Shown here: piece by piece, positions 13,805 through 21,289 of the stretch | Numbering within the stretch: the first letter of the stretch is position 1 | How the letters are laid out: each line of letters opens with the position of its first letter | Source: Methylosarcina fibrata AML-C10 | GTDB lineage: Bacteria; Pseudomonadota; Gammaproteobacteria; Methylococcales; Methylomonadaceae | Assembly: GCF_000372865.1 (NCBI RefSeq) | Contig: NZ_KB889965.1 | Location: 2,470,547 to 2,534,546, forward strand | Direction: 5' to 3' | Length of the DNA: 64,000 nucleotides | Position numbers and translations under genes: made by a program | The notes under the pieces: model-generated | Seen by the model: the letters and a program-made list of their open reading frames with translations, nothing else | Told to the model about the DNA's origin: nothing | The model's database searches: none

Positions 13805-14178
13805 ATAAGGCTCTCCGAGCATTTCTGGCAACAATAGTTGCTCTTGTCAGCGTGCCAGCATATGCATGGCTTGCGGCAGAGCTTGCTGCCTATTACGAGA
13901 TGTTCTCAACTGGCATGAAATCTCGTGCGGAGCTAGGTGACGACTTGGGGTTTGGCATTCTCTTGTTCATGGTAGTGCCACTGTTCACATTGGCCGGCGC
14001 TTTGCTTGTATGGGGCTCTTTTGGTTTCGTACGGGGCGCTCGAAAACCACTCTCACTAACGGGAATACCAATGCATAACATGGCGGTCGACCTCGCTCCC
14101 TTCGGTCGCTGGGCGCTGCGCAATAAAGCCGCGCAGCGCCGGTCACCCCTATGTTCGGCAGAAGGAGAAAGACGATGA
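13801..14178 (+). CDS. Cassette 16: small membrane protein, start and tail inside attC sites
   Basis: A 125-residue protein of unknown family. A signal-anchor-like helix (LRAFLATIVALVSVPAYAWLA) and a second membrane segment (GILLFMVVPLFTLAGALLVWGSFGFV) are visible. The ATG at 13801 is inside the right core heptamer of attC 15 (GTTATGC). The frame then reads through all of attC 16 (AVDLAPFGRWALRNKAAQRR) and stops at 14178, where its TGA overlaps the ATG of the next cassette gene at 14175 (ATGA). Translation of the two cassettes may therefore be coupled, an accident of cassette order. The natural C-terminus in another context would differ after the attC. Confidence 0.55.
   Translation: MHKALRAFLATIVALVSVPAYAWLAAELAAYYEMFSTGMKSRAELGDDLGFGILLFMVVPLFTLAGALLVWGSFGFVRGARKPLSLTGIPMHNMAVDLAPFGRWALRNKAAQRRSPLCSAEGERR
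14073..14159 (+). other. attC site 16
   Basis: GCATAAC (14073-14079) to GTTCGGC (14153-14159; third core position C is unusual). Stem CGCTGCGC / GCGCAGCG; nearly the same internal sequence as attC 12. Confidence 0.75.
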
Positions 14179-14943
14179 CCGCAAGAAATCAGAAAGAACA
14201 CGACGCAGAAATTATTGAGCAATTTACCAAGCAGGCAATTCCCTTCACCGAGTTGCCCGGACACTTGGACTCAATCCAAATGCTTATTGAGATGAGCAAG
14301 GTTGCTGGCGGTGACCTTGTTCTTGATGTCGCATGTGGGCCTGGGCTCGTCGCTTGCGAATTTGCCAAGGTGGCTCAACATGTTACGGGGATTGATCTCA
14401 CCAAAAAGATGATCGAGCAAGCCAGGAATCGCCAAAAAGAACTTGGTTTGGTCAATCTCTCATGGGGCATCGGAACAGCATCCCCATTGCCTTACACATC
14501 CGCTTCTTTCTCCATCGTCGTTACCAGATACAGCTTCCATCACTTTCTCGAACCGAAGGCAGTTTTGAGAGATGATCAGAGTGTGTAAGCCGAAAGGGGT
14601 TATTTTGATCGCAGATGCAGCATTGCCTGCCGACAAAGTTGATGCCTATAACCGCATGGAAAAACTCCGCGATCCATCTCATACCGAAGCGTTGTCATTC
14701 GAGTCATGGGAACAACTTCTTCGAGAATCCGGGTTGAGAAATCTTCAGCGTGGAAGCTACAAGGTTCCGATGGAGCTTGAGAAACAACTCAAAGCATCGT
14801 TCCCCAATCCGGGAGATGATGAGAAGATAAGGGAGATATTCAGAAACGACATCAATGCCAATTCATTGGGAATGGATGCTCGCTTAGTCGGCAGCGAAAT
14901 TCATTTTTCGTATCCGATATCAATCTATGTCGGAAACAAATAA
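14175..14943 (+). pseudogene. Cassette 17: SAM-dependent methyltransferase, frameshifted
   Basis: The first frame (14175-14588) holds motif I VLDVACGPGLVACEFA and motif II VTGIDLTKKMIEQA of a Methyltransf_11-type enzyme and breaks off after FHHFLEPKAVLR. The rest (MIRVCKPKGVILIADAALP onward, to 14943) is in another frame. Loss of one GA in the run TTGAGAGATGATC at about 14568-14578 explains it: restoring GA gives the normal AVLREMIRVCKPKG. The intact product would be about 256 residues. The second frame has an ATG at 14572, but it lacks the cofactor-binding half, so the gene is probably dead. AGGAG precedes the start at 14175. Confidence 0.85.
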
Positions 14944-15012: not shown

Positions 15013-15846
15013 ATGGGAACTGACAAAGACTGGGAGAAATGGGGCGCTACGGATCCTTATTTTGGCGTCCTTAGTAGTGAACACTTCAGGAAAGAAAATA
15101 TTGATGACCAAGCACGGGAGGAATTTTTTCTTACCGGCGAGGATCATGTTGCCAGGGTTCTTGATTTGATGTCCGAAAATTTCGACGAAAAGTTAATTTT
15201 GCGTAGCGTATTGGATTTCGGTTGTGGCGTAGGACGCCTCGCCATTCCGTTTGCACGTCGAGCGGTTAAATGCGTTGGCGTTGACGTTTCGCCGGCAATG
15301 CTCTCCGAAGCGGCAATCAACTCAATGGAAGCCGGAGTACAAAATATTGAATACACCAACTCCGGCAGCGATCTTTCAGAAATCAAAGATCAGTTTAGTT
15401 TGGTGCACACCTACCTCGTGCTTCAGCACATACCGTGGAATCGGGGAAGAAAAATAATCCAGCAGCTTGCCGATAAGGTGGAGGACGGTGGTTTTCTTGC
15501 TATCCATTTTTTCACGTCAAGCGGTGCGCCTAAAATTGTTCGAGCGCTGGTTCGAATAAGGTACGCCATTCCTCCGGTCAATTGGATCAGAAACCTGCTA
15601 AGGCGGCGTCCCATGTTTGAACCGGCCATGCAATTGCACATCTACGACGAAAAAACCATTTCCAGTGATCTTGAAAATCTTGGGTTTGACAAAGTGGTGT
15701 CCTGCGTCGAGCCGGACATGGACGGATTCAAGAATATTTTCTTGCTGGCACGCCGCAAAATGCTGTCCAAGCCGGTAACCGGGAATGCCCTGCCCCCACA
15801 CCATGCGGCATGCGAGTCCGCACCGGGCGGTTCAGCAACGCGATGA
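15013..15846 (+). CDS. Cassette 18: class I SAM-dependent methyltransferase
   Basis: A 277-residue methyltransferase. Motif I is VLDFGCGVGRLAIPFA (about 66-81), motif II CVGVDVSPAMLSEA, and the motif IV region SLVHTYLVLQHIPWNRG. The C-terminal lobe (MQLHIYDEKTISSDLENLGF) is normal for the Methyltransf_25/UbiE-like group. The last 20 residues after ARRKMLS are rich in Pro, His and Gly and appear to be coded by the integron/chromosome junction. The gene overlaps the 3' end of the histidine kinase gene (15832) on the other strand. No attC follows, so this is the distal end of the array. Confidence 0.8.
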   Translation: MGTDKDWEKWGATDPYFGVLSSEHFRKENIDDQAREEFFLTGEDHVARVLDLMSENFDEKLILRSVLDFGCGVGRLAIPFARRAVKCVGVDVSPAMLSEAAINSMEAGVQNIEYTNSGSDLSEIKDQFSLVHTYLVLQHIPWNRGRKIIQQLADKVEDGGFLAIHFFTSSGAPKIVRALVRIRYAIPPVNWIRNLLRRRPMFEPAMQLHIYDEKTISSDLENLGFDKVVSCVEPDMDGFKNIFLLARRKMLSKPVTGNALPPHHAACESAPGGSATR

Positions 15847-18006
15847 GGACCTGGAGCGGCATAGTGCCCTGACGTTTTCGGAAGATTTCTCTACCGGGAA
15901 ATGGATTCTGAATTCAGCGCCCGGATCCCGATTCCCTGCCTCGATCCGCCCGTTCATGCCGGCCGTCATTTGCTGCGCCAAGGCCAGCCCGATACCCGTC
16001 CCGACGGTCTCACGCGTCAGTTCGTTTTCGGAGCGGTAAAAAAGTTTAAATATTTTTTTCAGTTGGTCTTTGGCGATGCCGGGACCGTAATCGCGTACTT
16101 TGAACTGAATACGGACGTCGCTTGATCGATGGCAGGACAATTCGATCGTCTTTATATCGGCCTTGGCGGAAAATTTGACGGCATTATCGGCCAGGTTGAT
16201 CATGATCTGGATAAACCAGTCGGGATTGACCTTGATTCTGGCCTGAGCCGCATCCTCATCGCAGGACAGCTTTAAACAAAAGCCTGCCCGCTCGATTTGG
16301 GTTGAAATTTTCGATTGCAGGCTGTCCATGAGTTCGGCAACCGTCAGGCTTTTCAATTCCGGTTTTTTTTCATTCCGGGTCATTTTGGCAAGCTGCAACA
16401 CATTATTGATCAGCCGGGTCAGGCGCTCGCTTTCATCCAAAATGAAGTCGTAATAGGTCTTTTTCCTGGCTTCATCCACCCAGCCGGCTTGCAGCATCTC
16501 GCCGTACATACGGATCGAGGTGAGCGGCGTTTTCAGTTCATGGCTGACGGCAGAAACAAAATCCTGTTGCTGATTCATTAGATTGATCTGGCCGACGCCG
16601 AGCCGGTGCATCCAATAAAAGCCGGCCCCAAAAACGACGGTCAGCACGACGGTCAGCCAGATGATGACCCATCCCCCCGGCCCCACCGGAAGCTGAGTAA
16701 TGCTGAAAACCAGTTGTAATTCGCTCAACGGATCGGACAACCGGTCTTGATAAAGCAGTTCGCCCTGAAGCTCGCTCTGAAGCTCGGCGGCGCTCGACAG
16801 ATAACCTCGCGGCGCGCGCCCGGCAAAGGCGGACAGGACGTTGCCCTGAAAAACAGCCAGCAAATCGCTCATCTGCGACAGCGCGGTTTCCTGAAACGCC
16901 GTGTTGACAGTCTCTTGCAAAAACGCGTCTTTTTCGATCAACAGCCCCTGGATATAGCGCTGGCCGTTCAGCCAGACTTTGCGGAACAGGACAAACTGGC
17001 CGCTATCCAGTTGACTGAATTCGAAAGGGTCGACGGCGCTTTCAAAGGTGCGAATACGCAAGGCTTGCGCCTCCGGATGTGCTGCCGATGTAATCGGACG
17101 ACGGCTCTCTTCCGATGCATAACCGGATGATTTTTTTGCTTCGTTGATCGATTCGGGCAGGGCATTTTGCTCGGTCCGCGCCTTTTTCGGCATCGCCTTG
17201 AGGGCCTTAGGGGAATTTTCTTCGTTCTTTGCCTGATCGGCTTCTTTCTGAAAGGTTTGCCTTAATTTGATATCCTCCAGCCGGCCCAATTTGCTTTCTT
17301 GTTTGCTTTTTCCGGGGGATAGTTTGTTAAGCTCGTCGAAGACCGCCTGGCCGGCGCCGGCGGAAGGCGCGGCAGGTTTCCGGAGCTCGCCGTCTTCGCC
17401 GGATCGGGCAAACGAAGCAGTCTCTTGTTCGTTTTCAACCATTTCCTTGTCCTGCCGCTTGGCCAAATGAGCGCGCATCTCCTGATCATTTTTTCCGGCA
17501 TCGGCATGCTGATTTCTCACCAGCCGGTTTGCGCTTAATATCTGTTGAATCCGATTCTGCAAGGCGGCCCTTTCAGACAGCTCCCGTTCGGCAATGCCGT
17601 AACTCCCCGCTTTTTCGATCTCTTCGGGAAGAAAGGGCGTTAACAGCTTGCCGGCCGCATCCACCTGAAAATAACCGATCAACCCCGGTATTTCCGCTTG
17701 AACCGGATACCGGGAAAGCGGCGATCGTTGTAAAAAATTGGCCGTCGGAGCGCCGGCCACGTTCAGAAAGGCATAATCGGTAAACGGGCGTTGCTCTTCG
17801 GTATGAATCCATCGCATCAGGTGATTATTGATCCGGCGGGTCAGTTCCTCGGCCATTAACTGATGCTGATGAAAAGTCTCCCATTTCAAGCGGCTGTAGG
17901 ACTGCTGGATCAATACCGCCGTCGGTATCGCCAGGCTCAGGAAAAACATCAGCAGCCACCGCCGGAGTCTTGCTTTATCCAGGCCTTGCAGGTGATTCCG
18001 TTTCAT
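15832..18006 (-). CDS. Membrane histidine kinase with long periplasmic region
   Basis: A 724-residue sensor kinase starting at the ATG at 18006, which overlaps the response regulator stop (ATGA). Order: TM1 (WLLMFFLSLAIPTAVLI, about 13-29), a periplasmic region of about 400 residues including a Lys/Glu/Gln-rich low-complexity stretch (about 180-320), TM2 (VIIWLTVVLTVVFGAGFYW), a HisKA domain with the phospho-acceptor in SHELKTPLTSI, and HATPase_c with the N box INLADNAVKF, DYGPGIA and GTGIGLALAQQM. Its C-terminal dozen residues (RALCRSRSSSRC) run into the integron junction and may not be native. It presumably senses an envelope signal and drives the adjacent regulator. Confidence 0.9.
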   Translation of the reverse strand: MKRNHLQGLDKARLRRWLLMFFLSLAIPTAVLIQQSYSRLKWETFHQHQLMAEELTRRINNHLMRWIHTEEQRPFTDYAFLNVAGAPTANFLQRSPLSRYPVQAEIPGLIGYFQVDAAGKLLTPFLPEEIEKAGSYGIAERELSERAALQNRIQQILSANRLVRNQHADAGKNDQEMRAHLAKRQDKEMVENEQETASFARSGEDGELRKPAAPSAGAGQAVFDELNKLSPGKSKQESKLGRLEDIKLRQTFQKEADQAKNEENSPKALKAMPKKARTEQNALPESINEAKKSSGYASEESRRPITSAAHPEAQALRIRTFESAVDPFEFSQLDSGQFVLFRKVWLNGQRYIQGLLIEKDAFLQETVNTAFQETALSQMSDLLAVFQGNVLSAFAGRAPRGYLSSAAELQSELQGELLYQDRLSDPLSELQLVFSITQLPVGPGGWVIIWLTVVLTVVFGAGFYWMHRLGVGQINLMNQQQDFVSAVSHELKTPLTSIRMYGEMLQAGWVDEARKKTYYDFILDESERLTRLINNVLQLAKMTRNEKKPELKSLTVAELMDSLQSKISTQIERAGFCLKLSCDEDAAQARIKVNPDWFIQIMINLADNAVKFSAKADIKTIELSCHRSSDVRIQFKVRDYGPGIAKDQLKKIFKLFYRSENELTRETVGTGIGLALAQQMTAGMNGRIEAGNRDPGAEFRIHFPVEKSSENVRALCRSRSSSRC

Positions 18007-18710
18007 GGCTGTTGCCCGATCAGCCGGTAACCGGCGCCGCGCACGGTGATCAGAAATCGCGGTTCGGCGGGATCGACTTCTATCTTGCGGCGCAATTTGG
18101 CGATATGGATATCCACGGTACGGGTTTCGATGTCCAGATGATTGGCATATCCCCACACTTTGCTGAGCAACTCCTCGCGCGAAACCGGCCGGTTCGCGTG
18201 ACCGTGCAGATATTGCAGAATCTCGATCTCGCGCCGGGTGAAAGAGAGCGCTTGCGGCCCGCGCCTTCCCGACAGATTCCGGCAATCGATCGACAGCTCG
18301 CCTCCCAGTTGTATCGAGGGATCTTGCGACAAGCCCTGACGGGTTCGGCGCAAGACCGCCTGCACCCGGAGCACCAGTTGCGCCACCGAAAACGGCTTGG
18401 CGACATAATCGTCCGCGCCCAGCGACAAGCCTTCGATGATGTCTTCATCGTTGCTTTTTGCCGTCAGCATGATGACGGCCAGATCGCGGTTCTTTTCCCG
18501 AATCCGGTTGCAGATCTCAAAGCCGTTCATGCCCGGCAGCATGACGTCCAGCAGGATCAGGTCGAATTTTCCGCTCAAAGCCTTGGTCAGGCCCTCCGTG
18601 CCGTGGCCGGAAAAATCGACGTCGTAACCGTGATAGACGAAGACGTCGATCAGCCCGGTACGGATGGCGGCTTCGTCTTCAATAATCAGAATGCGTAATT
18701 TACGGGACAT
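18003..18710 (-). CDS. OmpR-family response regulator
   Basis: A 235-residue two-component regulator. The receiver domain has the acidic pair (IIEDEAA), the phospho-acceptor Asp in LILLDVMLPGMNG (about 52) and Lys in ADDYVAKPFSV. The C-terminal winged helix is of OmpR/PhoB type (LSFTRREIEILQYLHGH, then VSREELLSKVWGY, VDIHIAKLRRKIE). The ATG at 18710 follows GAGG; upstream in-frame codons lie in the intergenic region. Its stop overlaps the kinase start, so the two are co-translated. It is divergent from pspA at 18949, with a 28-bp direct repeat in between that is a plausible binding site. Confidence 0.93.
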   Translation of the reverse strand: MSRKLRILIIEDEAAIRTGLIDVFVYHGYDVDFSGHGTEGLTKALSGKFDLILLDVMLPGMNGFEICNRIREKNRDLAVIMLTAKSNDEDIIEGLSLGADDYVAKPFSVAQLVLRVQAVLRRTRQGLSQDPSIQLGGELSIDCRNLSGRRGPQALSFTRREIEILQYLHGHANRPVSREELLSKVWGYANHLDIETRTVDIHIAKLRRKIEVDPAEPRFLITVRGAGYRLIGQQP

Positions 18711-18828
18711 CGCAACCCTCGGGCCGGAACACACGGACAGTGTAGCAAGCCTATAAAATTTATGAGCGACCGCAGTGTAAATTTTTTGTAAAACCTGCGC
18801 CGAAGGTTTTACCGAACCGTGCCTGTTT

Positions 18829-18917
18829 ATTGTGACTCCGCGCGCATAGACTGAACGATTGATCAGCATCGTTCCAGTGGCCGAAACCCATTGTGACTCC
18901 GCGCGCATAGACTGAAC
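18829..18917 (+). repeat. 28-bp direct repeat between response regulator and pspA
   Basis: Two identical 28-bp copies at 18829-18856 and 18890-18917 begin ATTGTGACTCC and end CATAGACTGAAC. Start-to-start distance is 61 bp, about six helical turns. The second copy ends 32 bp before the pspA ATG. Likely operators for the adjacent regulator, or a tandem duplication of promoter DNA. Confidence 0.85.
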
Positions 18918-18948
18918 ACCGTCAATCATTTACGCACGAGGTCAGATC

Positions 18949-19479
18949 ATGGCTTTAATTACAAGACTGGGGAGGCTTTTCCGGGCCGACCTGCATGCGG
19001 TGCTGGACGCAATCGAAGAACCGGCTCTGCTGCTCAAACAAAGCATCCGGGAAATGGAAGAATCCGTTGCCGCCGACGAACAGCAAATTCGCCAATGGGA
19101 ATACGAATGCCGGCAACTGGCGGGTAAACGCGACCGGCTGGCGGCATCGCTGGACGATCTGGAAGAAAAGTGCGCGCTCTGTTTTAAATCCAATCAGGAC
19201 GACCTGGCACGGTCTTTCATTAAACGCAGGCTCGAAACGCAGCAGGCGATGCAGTTGCTTGGGGAAAAAATAACGACCATGCAGGAAAAAATGTCCCGTT
19301 TAACTGATCAGCTCGCGGAACATCACGTGCAATTAACGGCGATGAAGCAGAAAGCCGAAGTCTTTCTGGAAGAAGGCGCCTTGAACACGACTCATCGGGA
19401 AAACCCATCGGTGTGCGTCCGGGATGAAGACGTGGAAACCGCTTTCCTTTCTGAAAAACAAAAATGGAGCGACTCATGA
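18949..19479 (+). CDS. PspA/IM30-family protein
   Basis: A 176-residue coiled-coil protein. It starts with the PspA-type helix (ALITRLGRLFRADLHAVLDAIEEPALLLKQSIREME) that binds membrane, followed by long heptad helices (LDDLEEKCALCFKSNQDDLARSFIKRR). It is about 45 residues shorter than E. coli PspA, lacking the last helix. PspA proteins form ESCRT-III-like assemblies that protect the inner membrane under envelope stress. GAGG lies about nine bases before the ATG. Its TGA overlaps the ATG of the next gene. A signal from the divergent kinase/regulator may control it, judging from the 28-bp repeats upstream. Confidence 0.85.
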   Translation: MALITRLGRLFRADLHAVLDAIEEPALLLKQSIREMEESVAADEQQIRQWEYECRQLAGKRDRLAASLDDLEEKCALCFKSNQDDLARSFIKRRLETQQAMQLLGEKITTMQEKMSRLTDQLAEHHVQLTAMKQKAEVFLEEGALNTTHRENPSVCVRDEDVETAFLSEKQKWSDS

Positions 19480-20045
19480 AAAAGCCGACATTTTGGGAAG
19501 GCGTCGTTGTCGCGTTGTCGGCCAGCCTCGCCGGCGCCATCGGATTTTTTGCCTTGTCCTTCCTGTTTGCGGAAGACATGGCAATCCGTCTGGTCATCAG
19601 CGGATCGGCTTTTGTCTACAGCCTTTACCTGCTCAGCCGCAGCGGGAAACGCATCGGCCGGATCACGGTGGTGCTTTCATGGTGCCTCCTGTCCGCGGCG
19701 GTCTGGCTGTTCTTTCCGTCCCTGATTCTGTTTTTAATGCTGAATGTCCTTCCGATCTGGCTGATTCGCTCGCTGTATTTTTATAGCCGCCTGTTTCCAG
19801 CCCTGGCCGATTTGGGTTTATGCCTGGCCGGCGTCGCGTCGGCGTTCTGGGCATTGCATTACACCGGCAGCCCGTTCCTGACGTTTTGGTGCTTTTTCCT
19901 GATCCAGGCGTTGTTCGTTGCCATTCCCCCAGGAAACAAGCCAACGTTTGCCGATGAAACGGTCTTCTCGAACAGCGAAGCGGAATTCAAACGCGCCTAC
20001 CAGGCAGCGGAAGCGGCCGTGCGCAAACTTTCAACACTACCTTAG
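19476..20045 (+). CDS. Multi-pass membrane protein in the pspA operon
   Basis: A 189-residue inner-membrane protein of unknown family. The ATG at 19476 overlaps the pspA stop (ATGA) and has GGAGCG upstream; an in-frame ATG at 19464 is less likely. Five or so hydrophobic segments are seen, among them GVVVALSASLAGAIGFFALSF, LVISGSAFVYSLYLL, VLSWCLLSAAVWLFF and FLTFWCFFLIQALFVAI, then a soluble tail (AEFKRAYQAAEAAVRKL). Tight coupling with PspA suggests it recruits PspA to the membrane or acts with it, as PspB/C do elsewhere, though it does not resemble those proteins. Confidence 0.7.
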   Translation: MKKPTFWEGVVVALSASLAGAIGFFALSFLFAEDMAIRLVISGSAFVYSLYLLSRSGKRIGRITVVLSWCLLSAAVWLFFPSLILFLMLNVLPIWLIRSLYFYSRLFPALADLGLCLAGVASAFWALHYTGSPFLTFWCFFLIQALFVAIPPGNKPTFADETVFSNSEAEFKRAYQAAEAAVRKLSTLP

Positions 20046-20056
20046 GAGAAATGCTG

Positions 20057-21289
20057 ATGAAAACCAGACTCTTGACCCTCGGACTGTTTGCCGCGACCGC
20101 TGCGACGGTCGCCTTTTACCCGGCAGTCCGGCAGGCCGTCGCCACGACCGCAAAACCGGTCACAACACCATCCAAAGGGATTAATCCGGCTACGATACCG
20201 CCGGTGGCCGCCGCCAATCAACGCCCGCAAATCGAGGTGGTATTCGTTCTCGACACCACCGGCAGCATGAGCGGACTGATCGCGGCGGCCAAGGAAAAAA
20301 TCTGGTCGATCGCCAGCACCATGGCCTCCGCGCAAACCGCGCCGGACATCAAAATGGGGCTGGTGGCCTACCGCGACCGCGGCGATGCTTATATCACCCA
20401 GACCATTCCTCTCTCCGGCGACCTGGATTCGATGTATGCCAAGCTGATGGATTTTCAGGCCGATGGCGGCGGCGACGGTCCCGAAAGCGTTAATCAGGCT
20501 CTTCACGATGCGGTGAATAAAATCACCTGGAGCCAAAGCCCCACTATCTACAAAGTCATCTTTCTAGTCGGCGATGCGCCGCCGCACATGGATTACCCGG
20601 ACGACGTCAAATACCCGGTTACGGTCGCGTTGGCCAGACAAAAAGGCATCATCGTCAACGCGATCCAGTGCGGGCAAGACCGTAGCGTTACCGCCGATTG
20701 GCAGCAAGTCGCCAGTCTGGGGCAAGGCAGTTATTTTCAGGTCGGGCAATCCGGCAATGCGGTCGCCATTGCGACGCCGTACGATAAAAAACTGGCGGAG
20801 TTATCCGCCCAATGGGATAAAACGCGCCTCTTCTACGGCAATGATGAAGAAAAGGCGAAGCAGGCGGAAAAAGTGGCCGCGACCGAGAAACTGCATAAAG
20901 AAGCCAGCACCGAATCGCAAGCGCGCCGGGCAACCTTTAATGCCTCCCCCAGCGGTAAAACCAATTTTCTCGGCGAAAACGAACTGGTCGATGCGGTCGC
21001 CAGCGGCCGGGTAAAGCTGTCCGGTCTGCCGAAAAAATCCCTGCCGGAAAGCCTGCAAGTCCTCTCGCCTGCCGCCCGGGAAGAATTTGTCGGCAACGCG
21101 AAAAAGGAACGGAGCGAGCTGGCATCCGAAATCAAAAAACTGTCCGAGCAGCGTAACGATTACTTGCGGCAGAAAGTCGTTGCCGAAGGCGGAAAAAAGG
21201 ATTCGCTGGATGCCCAATTGTTCGGCGCCATCCGCCGGCAAGCCAAAGACAAGGGGTTGGTTTACGAGGCTGACAGCGCTAAATATTAA
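20057..21289 (+). CDS. Secreted von Willebrand factor A-domain protein
   Basis: A 410-residue exported protein. An N-terminal signal or anchor helix (LLTLGLFAATAATVAFYPAV) precedes a vWA domain at about residues 58-250 with the metal-binding MIDAS motif VVFVLDTTGSMS, the conserved Thr region and IFLVGDAPPH. The last 140 residues are charged and helical (LAELSAQWDKTRLFYGND, then EFVGNAKKERSELASEIKKLSEQ), likely coiled coil. The ATG at 20057 is eight bases after AGGAG; the ATG at 20051 is too close to it. Third gene of the pspA operon. PspA, membrane protein and vWA sets with a two-component system have been inferred to form envelope-stress modules; the exact role is unknown. Confidence 0.82.
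   Translation: MKTRLLTLGLFAATAATVAFYPAVRQAVATTAKPVTTPSKGINPATIPPVAAANQRPQIEVVFVLDTTGSMSGLIAAAKEKIWSIASTMASAQTAPDIKMGLVAYRDRGDAYITQTIPLSGDLDSMYAKLMDFQADGGGDGPESVNQALHDAVNKITWSQSPTIYKVIFLVGDAPPHMDYPDDVKYPVTVALARQKGIIVNAIQCGQDRSVTADWQQVASLGQGSYFQVGQSGNAVAIATPYDKKLAELSAQWDKTRLFYGNDEEKAKQAEKVAATEKLHKEASTESQARRATFNASPSGKTNFLGENELVDAVASGRVKLSGLPKKSLPESLQVLSPAAREEFVGNAKKERSELASEIKKLSEQRNDYLRQKVVAEGGKKDSLDAQLFGAIRRQAKDKGLVYEADSAKY

Follow-up and report, generated by a model that had tools for sequence, protein, structure and literature searches.

In Bacillus subtilis, the two-component system LiaRS controls a PspA homologue and its membrane anchor, LiaIH, as outlined in the main text of two surveys of phage shock protein (PSP) systems (PMC9239133, PMC11237479). 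Likewise, pspA adjoins kinase and regulator genes in Actinobacteria and Firmicutes, where the main text of one survey names PspC, PspAA, Toastrack and LiaI-LiaF-TM as partners (Ravi et al. 2024, PMC11237479). Here we describe a five-gene locus in a 64,000-nucleotide stretch of Methylosarcina fibrata AML-C10 (contig NZ_KB889965.1; hereafter the window, in whose positions all coordinates are given). The genes of a sensor histidine kinase and a response regulator face an operon encoding a short PspA, a membrane protein and a protein with a von Willebrand factor A (vWA) domain. We read this locus as a dedicated envelope-stress module, in which a PhoB-like two-component system would serve a Lia-like pair of PspA and membrane anchor together with the vWA protein, and assign this reading a probability of about 0.62.

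All five genes were confirmed as real, with start codons set by alignment to relatives. The kinase (724 aa; 15832-18006, minus strand) contains HisKA and HATPase_c domains and gave no HAMP match. Its gene overlaps by 4 bases (ATGA) with that of the OmpR/PhoB-type response regulator (235 aa; 18003-18710, minus strand), which carries Response_reg and Trans_reg_C. An identical overlap joins the genes of the short PspA/IM30 protein (176 aa; 18949-19479, plus strand), recognized by the PspA_IM30 profile, and the membrane protein (189 aa; 19476-20045, plus strand). They are followed by the gene of the vWA protein (410 aa; 20057-21289, plus strand), which has a hydrophobic N-terminus and a DTTGSMS motif of the metal-ion-dependent adhesion site (MIDAS) type. 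An earlier reading of this DNA, here called the original prediction, had proposed an operon of these three products, and its genes are borne out.

By gene content, LiaRS-LiaIH appears to be the nearest working analogue, as in both loci a PspA homologue and a membrane partner adjoin the genes of a two-component system. Unlike the Bacillus system, the present locus is divergent and includes a vWA gene; its membrane protein is modelled with six helices against the four named for LiaI. The module is not filed as a Lia member, because Pfam detected no LiaI, LiaF or Toastrack part in the five proteins. The neighbourhood of pspA, kinase and regulator recalls the loci of Actinobacteria and Firmicutes, whose named partners differ from the vWA protein found here. 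The PspF-PspABC system of Escherichia coli shares with the locus a PspA-family protein as presumed inner-membrane effector. In M. fibrata, unlike E. coli, kinase and regulator genes adjoin pspA, and the regulator is a Response_reg and Trans_reg_C protein, not the sigma-54 enhancer-binding PspF. Moreover, PspC (PF04024) had no match in the genome at E 0.001, while the E. coli control was detected. Pfam placed none of PspB, PspC and PspF among the five genes, the only ones examined for PspF. The predicted domains point to control unlike that of PspF-PspABC. The proteobacterial dedicated sortase system, whose target protein is family TIGR03788, also has its own kinase and regulator. The vWA protein resembles this target weakly (E 6e-7), with a match confined to the vWA domain and 28.2 bits against an equivalog cut-off of 551.65; unlike in that system, no sortase is encoded among the five genes.

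The five genes recur together in relatives. A vWA scan of genome contigs gave 38 loci (L007-L044); with L004-L006 from a separate search added, a close, module-type vWA occurred in 19 loci (L004-L021 and L023). Fourteen of these 19 displayed all five genes in the same layout, the membrane protein of L023 having been found in a later search; L004, L005, L006 and L013 are cut by a locus or contig end. In the remaining one, from a Leucothrix sp. metagenome-assembled genome (L012:602-4801), the only operon gene opposite kinase and regulator is that of the vWA protein, with the box described below kept and PspA and membrane protein absent. In L027 a contig edge cuts the vWA gene, inside which the locus begins. 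The other vWA relatives (L022, L024-L026, L028-L043), among them loci from Verrucomicrobia, Planctomycetota, Acidobacteriota and others, yielded no PspA or membrane protein match at E 1e-4 with the window proteins as queries; flanks were short in many of them, and a distant PspA may have escaped detection. Above a 60-bit floor they showed only generic kinase or regulator matches, in L038 and L041. A further 28 stretches, some from genomes of the vWA scan, were chosen by the membrane protein (22) or by a vWA orthologue within the family (6); genome G575, cut at a contig end, was left out. Homologues of all five genes in divergent arrangement were present in 26 of them. One of the other two is a 5-kb contig that lacks kinase and regulator and has a rearranged operon (L100:278-3055), in which the box is followed first by a vWA gene of another type and then by PspA and the membrane protein. 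The second is the degenerate L107, which has stops in the membrane protein frame, no vWA found and the box still in place. The kinase gene of L091 runs into the contig end, and the regulator of L084 is short; in L097:1410-4251 kinase similarity spans about residues 27-701 and the open frame 444 aa, and this gene may be interrupted. L084, L092, L093 and L096 encode a vWA protein of a second subfamily that shares about 30% identity with the first. Flanking open reading frames of at least 100 aa were common to at most two other loci (E 1e-10), which, within the flanks available, puts the module edges at the five genes. Of 369 Gammaproteobacteria sampled across the class, 24, from 19 families, carried the membrane protein in a profile search; a single-sequence search detected it in 4 of the 61 genomes in the relatives' sample, M. 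fibrata counted. The module is wide in reach and patchy in occurrence.

Comparison of the regions between regulator and pspA revealed a conserved promoter element. Duplicates (L004, L005, the copies L080, L101-L104 and L106) were dropped beforehand, and 38 distinct intergenic regions gave the consensus TGTAAA-N5-TGTAAA-N14-TTTTAC-N7-TGYCTR followed by a TAGACT-like -10 hexamer. In the window, site A (TGTAAAT-N4-TGTAAAA, half-sites 11 bp apart; 18776-18793, plus strand) is followed by site B (GTTTTACCGAACCGTGCCTG; 18806-18825, plus strand), which is expected to overlap the -35 region. The operon -10, TAGACT at 18847-18852 (plus strand), lies 39 bp past TTTAC. A pattern admitting the variants GTAAC and TTTGC found the box in 38/38 regions; it demanded GTAA and TTT-C, whose invariance is therefore by construction. 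GTAAA-N6-GTAAA is exact in 36 of the 38 loci, L086 and L088 having GTAAC, and TTTGC replaces TTTAC in L020 and L021; TGYCTR is a consensus with departures. Between the second GTAAA and TTTAC lie 15 bases in 30 loci, 16 in seven and 14 in one. The best TAGACT-like hexamer stands exactly 39 bp past TTTAC in 32/38 loci, and at this position 33/38 match TAGACT in at least four of six bases (3.8% expected per locus). Relative to the -10, TTTTAC-N7-TGYCTR lies across the -35 region, where PhoB-like class II activators have their site. A promoter scanner reported no sigma-70 consensus at the native -10, an absence that may fit an activated promoter. On the minus strand, TACACT at 18739-18744, picked by eye, is a candidate -10 for the regulator and kinase genes; several relatives have TAAACT, TAGGCT or TAGACT there. 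In L083, L089 and L094, also judged by eye, the presumed regulator -10 stands only about 7-10 bases before the start, which would give a leaderless or near-leaderless mRNA.

The box was then located in whole genomes. With a three-part pattern, 24 of 25 module genomes gave 25 matches, 23 of them at modules; the modules of G344 and G390 carry the GTAAC variant. The two matches away from the module, in G390 and G582, lie 120-132 bp upstream of a vWA gene start and in the reading direction of that gene, and both have a hexamer matching 4/6 bases at +39. These genes (L129:1501-2778 and L133:211-1536) are stand-alone second vWA genes of module-bearing genomes, with 36-37% (L129) and 45-53% (L133) identity to the second vWA subfamily. 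A fuller pattern including GNCT, applied to the 369 class genomes, again matched both extra vWA sites and was present in 23 genomes, namely 22 of the 24 that have the membrane protein and one of the 345 that lack it. It missed G436, which has a variant site B, and G575, whose contig starts inside the module. For the sole match outside module genomes, in G420, the 3 kb read showed no neighbouring module gene, and we regard it as a chance hit. The rarity of the box among the 345 genomes is the stronger half of this association. In G397, moreover, the box precedes an operon of vWA (another type), PspA and membrane protein, with TAGAGT at +40. An initial pattern, its gap too short, was discarded after hitting one unrelated place and no module. 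The original prediction of a self-contained set distinct from PspABC agrees with the recurrent layout, the unconserved flanks, the promoter element nearly limited to module genomes and the lack of PspC or another PspA above the cut-off in this genome.

The short PspA passed the gathering score of PspA_IM30 (61.9 against 33.9 bits) and aligned to profile positions 4-138 of 220 only, which falls short of full length and makes it a truncated member; with TIGR02977 (phage shock protein PspA) it scored 45.7 bits against an equivalog cut-off of 242.95. On Vipp1/PspA chains of known structure, the profile of its family covers about residues 1-152. The homology extends over the N-terminal part of PspA, which binds membranes. 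Furthermore, the family has its own conserved C-terminal motif with the consensus VxDxDVExAFLREKQ. No other PspA exceeded the Pfam cut-off in this genome; one further profile match lay below it and has three internal stops. For the membrane protein, the structure model (mean pLDDT, the predicted local distance difference score, 90) comprises six helices within residues 6-149 that by eye are hydrophobic, followed by a C-terminal helix at 161-187. Searches of Pfam (to E 10) and NCBIfam (to E 0.1) assigned this protein to no family; the best Foldseek hit (E 0.35) was not trusted and the best PDB sequence hit had E 0.14. The vWA family keeps DTT[GS]SM in an alignment of 21 sequences, its conserved C-terminal part matches no family, and no PDB sequence matched at E 0.01. 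The hydrophobic N-terminus suggests that the vWA protein is exported. PHROGs gave no match for the three operon proteins. Among plasmid records the membrane protein had no match and the vWA protein ten weak ones, none covering 80%, phage records lying outside this search. A role in defence was considered and rejected, as the PADLOC matches were weak coiled-coil, receiver or ATPase resemblances.

The kinase consists of a presumed transmembrane segment, a periplasmic region of about residues 34-444, a second presumed transmembrane segment, HisKA and HATPase_c. In the structure model (mean pLDDT 76) the periplasmic region is flanked by two long helices, with the membrane helices judged by eye. 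It contains two conserved parts around a charged linker at about 165-315, which varies among relatives, has a few invariant residues (F223, L226 and L248) and falls below pLDDT 50 at 168-216, 264-270 and 288-314. The region of about 400 residues with a charged stretch was thus described correctly in the original prediction. Residues 34-444 had no credible Pfam, NCBIfam or PDB sequence match, and the rows of a fold search (VIA-align) span mainly residues 465-708, almost only the kinase core. The kinase sensor, the membrane protein and the vWA C-terminus match no known family in the libraries searched. With its receiver and Trans_reg_C domains the regulator falls into the OmpR/PhoB class, and it is 62-87% identical to 34 relatives.

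PspA homology suggests envelope stress as the signal of the module. The periplasmic region of the kinase would detect envelope perturbation, and the kinase would phosphorylate the regulator. The latter would bind sites A and B, with B over the -35, and activate the operon in class II fashion and probably its own gene as well. The short PspA may be fixed to the inner membrane by the membrane protein, in the way LiaI anchors LiaH; the vWA protein may act on the periplasmic side through its metal site, as a tether or as a feedback signal. An extended version of this model, which we regard as rather unlikely, supposes an as yet undescribed trans-envelope complex, which the private two-component system would have built on demand. 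In it, a new family of six-helix membrane proteins would couple a cytoplasmic mini-PspA to the vWA protein, periplasmic and metal-dependent, and conserved short motifs of the flexible kinase linker would read the state of the vWA protein and close a feedback loop across the inner membrane.

The original prediction had placed the regulator sites elsewhere, in two identical 28-bp repeats between regulator and pspA. The repeats are exact, exceed chance expectation by far and lie within the shared intergenic region, 61 bp apart from start to start with a gap of 33 bp. Nevertheless, the idea that they are tandem binding sites of the response regulator seems very improbable. The expectation that genes and repeats are conserved together came true for the five genes and failed for the repeats, which were absent as a pair from all 37 other intergenic regions; there the longest direct repeats had at most 10 bases and the best single match, 20/28, fell at the homologous -10. 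The conserved element lies upstream, at 18776-18825, and since the repeats are downstream of it, 18829-18917 is a less likely regulator stretch. Copy 1 (18829-18856, plus strand) contains the operon -10 hexamer and alone keeps the ancestral distance to the box. The 61 bp that follow (18857-18917, plus strand), 33 bp plus copy 2 at 18890-18917, were found in this genome only, the single representative of its genus in the comparison. This insertion duplicates the -10 region and accounts for the 102 bp between -10 and operon start, against 35-54 bp in the other loci with a -10 at +39. By eye, the sequence after copy 2 resembles the leader of relatives such as L005 and L009. A duplication-type insertion, placed after the native -10 and ahead of the start codon, appears to have given rise to the repeats, with at most an altered leader or an added weak second start as its effect. 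No third copy with up to 3 mismatches occurs in the window (0 expected from 100 shuffles), and the 23-bp repeat core, with at most 3 mismatches, has only these two sites in the 4.98-Mb genome. A genome-wide repeat family or mobile element was rejected as an origin, as the inserted stretch has no second genomic copy and other matches extend over 14-19 bases. The repeat is best viewed as a local quirk of this genome.

Two other explanations concern the output and the reach of the regulator. The vWA protein could be the main product, with PspA and the membrane protein as helpers, in a surface or matrix function such as adhesion or mechanosensing and not primarily in membrane damage. We consider this possible and clearly less probable than an envelope-stress module. 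In its favour, the extra boxes precede stand-alone vWA genes, the Leucothrix locus retains only the vWA gene of the three operon genes, and a vWA gene is kept even where its kind changes to the second subfamily or, in L100, to another type. The vWA protein was also the best conserved operon product when the sequences were first aligned (64% mean column identity against 53% and 55%, from differing sequence sets), although conservation alone does not rank its importance. PspA and the membrane protein, however, accompany it in all uncut, non-degenerate modules except L012, with frames that overlap or adjoin wherever measured. An improbable alternative is that the regulator serves a broader PhoB-like regulon with the module as one target of many. 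The box does have the 7-4-7 layout of PhoB/OmpR sites, but in the 25 module genomes the three-part box marks the module and two vWA genes only, in a search that did not extend to single half-site pairs and could have missed weaker targets.

Several observations weigh against the envelope-stress module itself. Envelope stress, DNA binding, membrane protection, PspA anchoring and a periplasmic vWA protein are parts presumed from sequence. Because kinase and regulator of L012 face the vWA gene without PspA and membrane protein, PspA may be accessory. The C-terminal part of canonical PspA is missing from the short version. The best hexamer lies at distances other than +39 in 6 of the 38 loci. Backward controls of the box search matched as well, in 2/25 genomes with the three-part and 2/369 with the fuller pattern, so that the extra boxes persuade by their place before vWA genes and not by their number. 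The Fisher value for box against membrane protein in the 369 genomes (4.5e-32) is descriptive only, because the box was derived from such loci and then counted. The patchiness is marked: the membrane protein occurred in one of 398 genomes drawn across the phylum, M. fibrata itself, and a close vWA orthologue in 7 of 201 family genomes, M. fibrata counted, with weak vWA matches only in 12 more.

Read as an envelope-stress module, the locus adds to the Gram-negative bacteria a compact, patchy but widespread PspA module with its own two-component system and three protein parts unnamed by the family libraries searched. The promoter box makes the target of the regulator predictable, and its link to vWA genes points to a PspA partner that the main text of the two PSP surveys (PMC11237479, PMC9239133) does not mention; in the main text of the former neither 'von Willebrand' nor 'vwa' occurs, supplements lying outside this search. 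The combination was not encountered in print in searches of an open-licence library. Beside the module, two overlapping frames at 14151-14943 of the window together resemble one S-adenosylmethionine-dependent methyltransferase by eye, possibly a broken gene.
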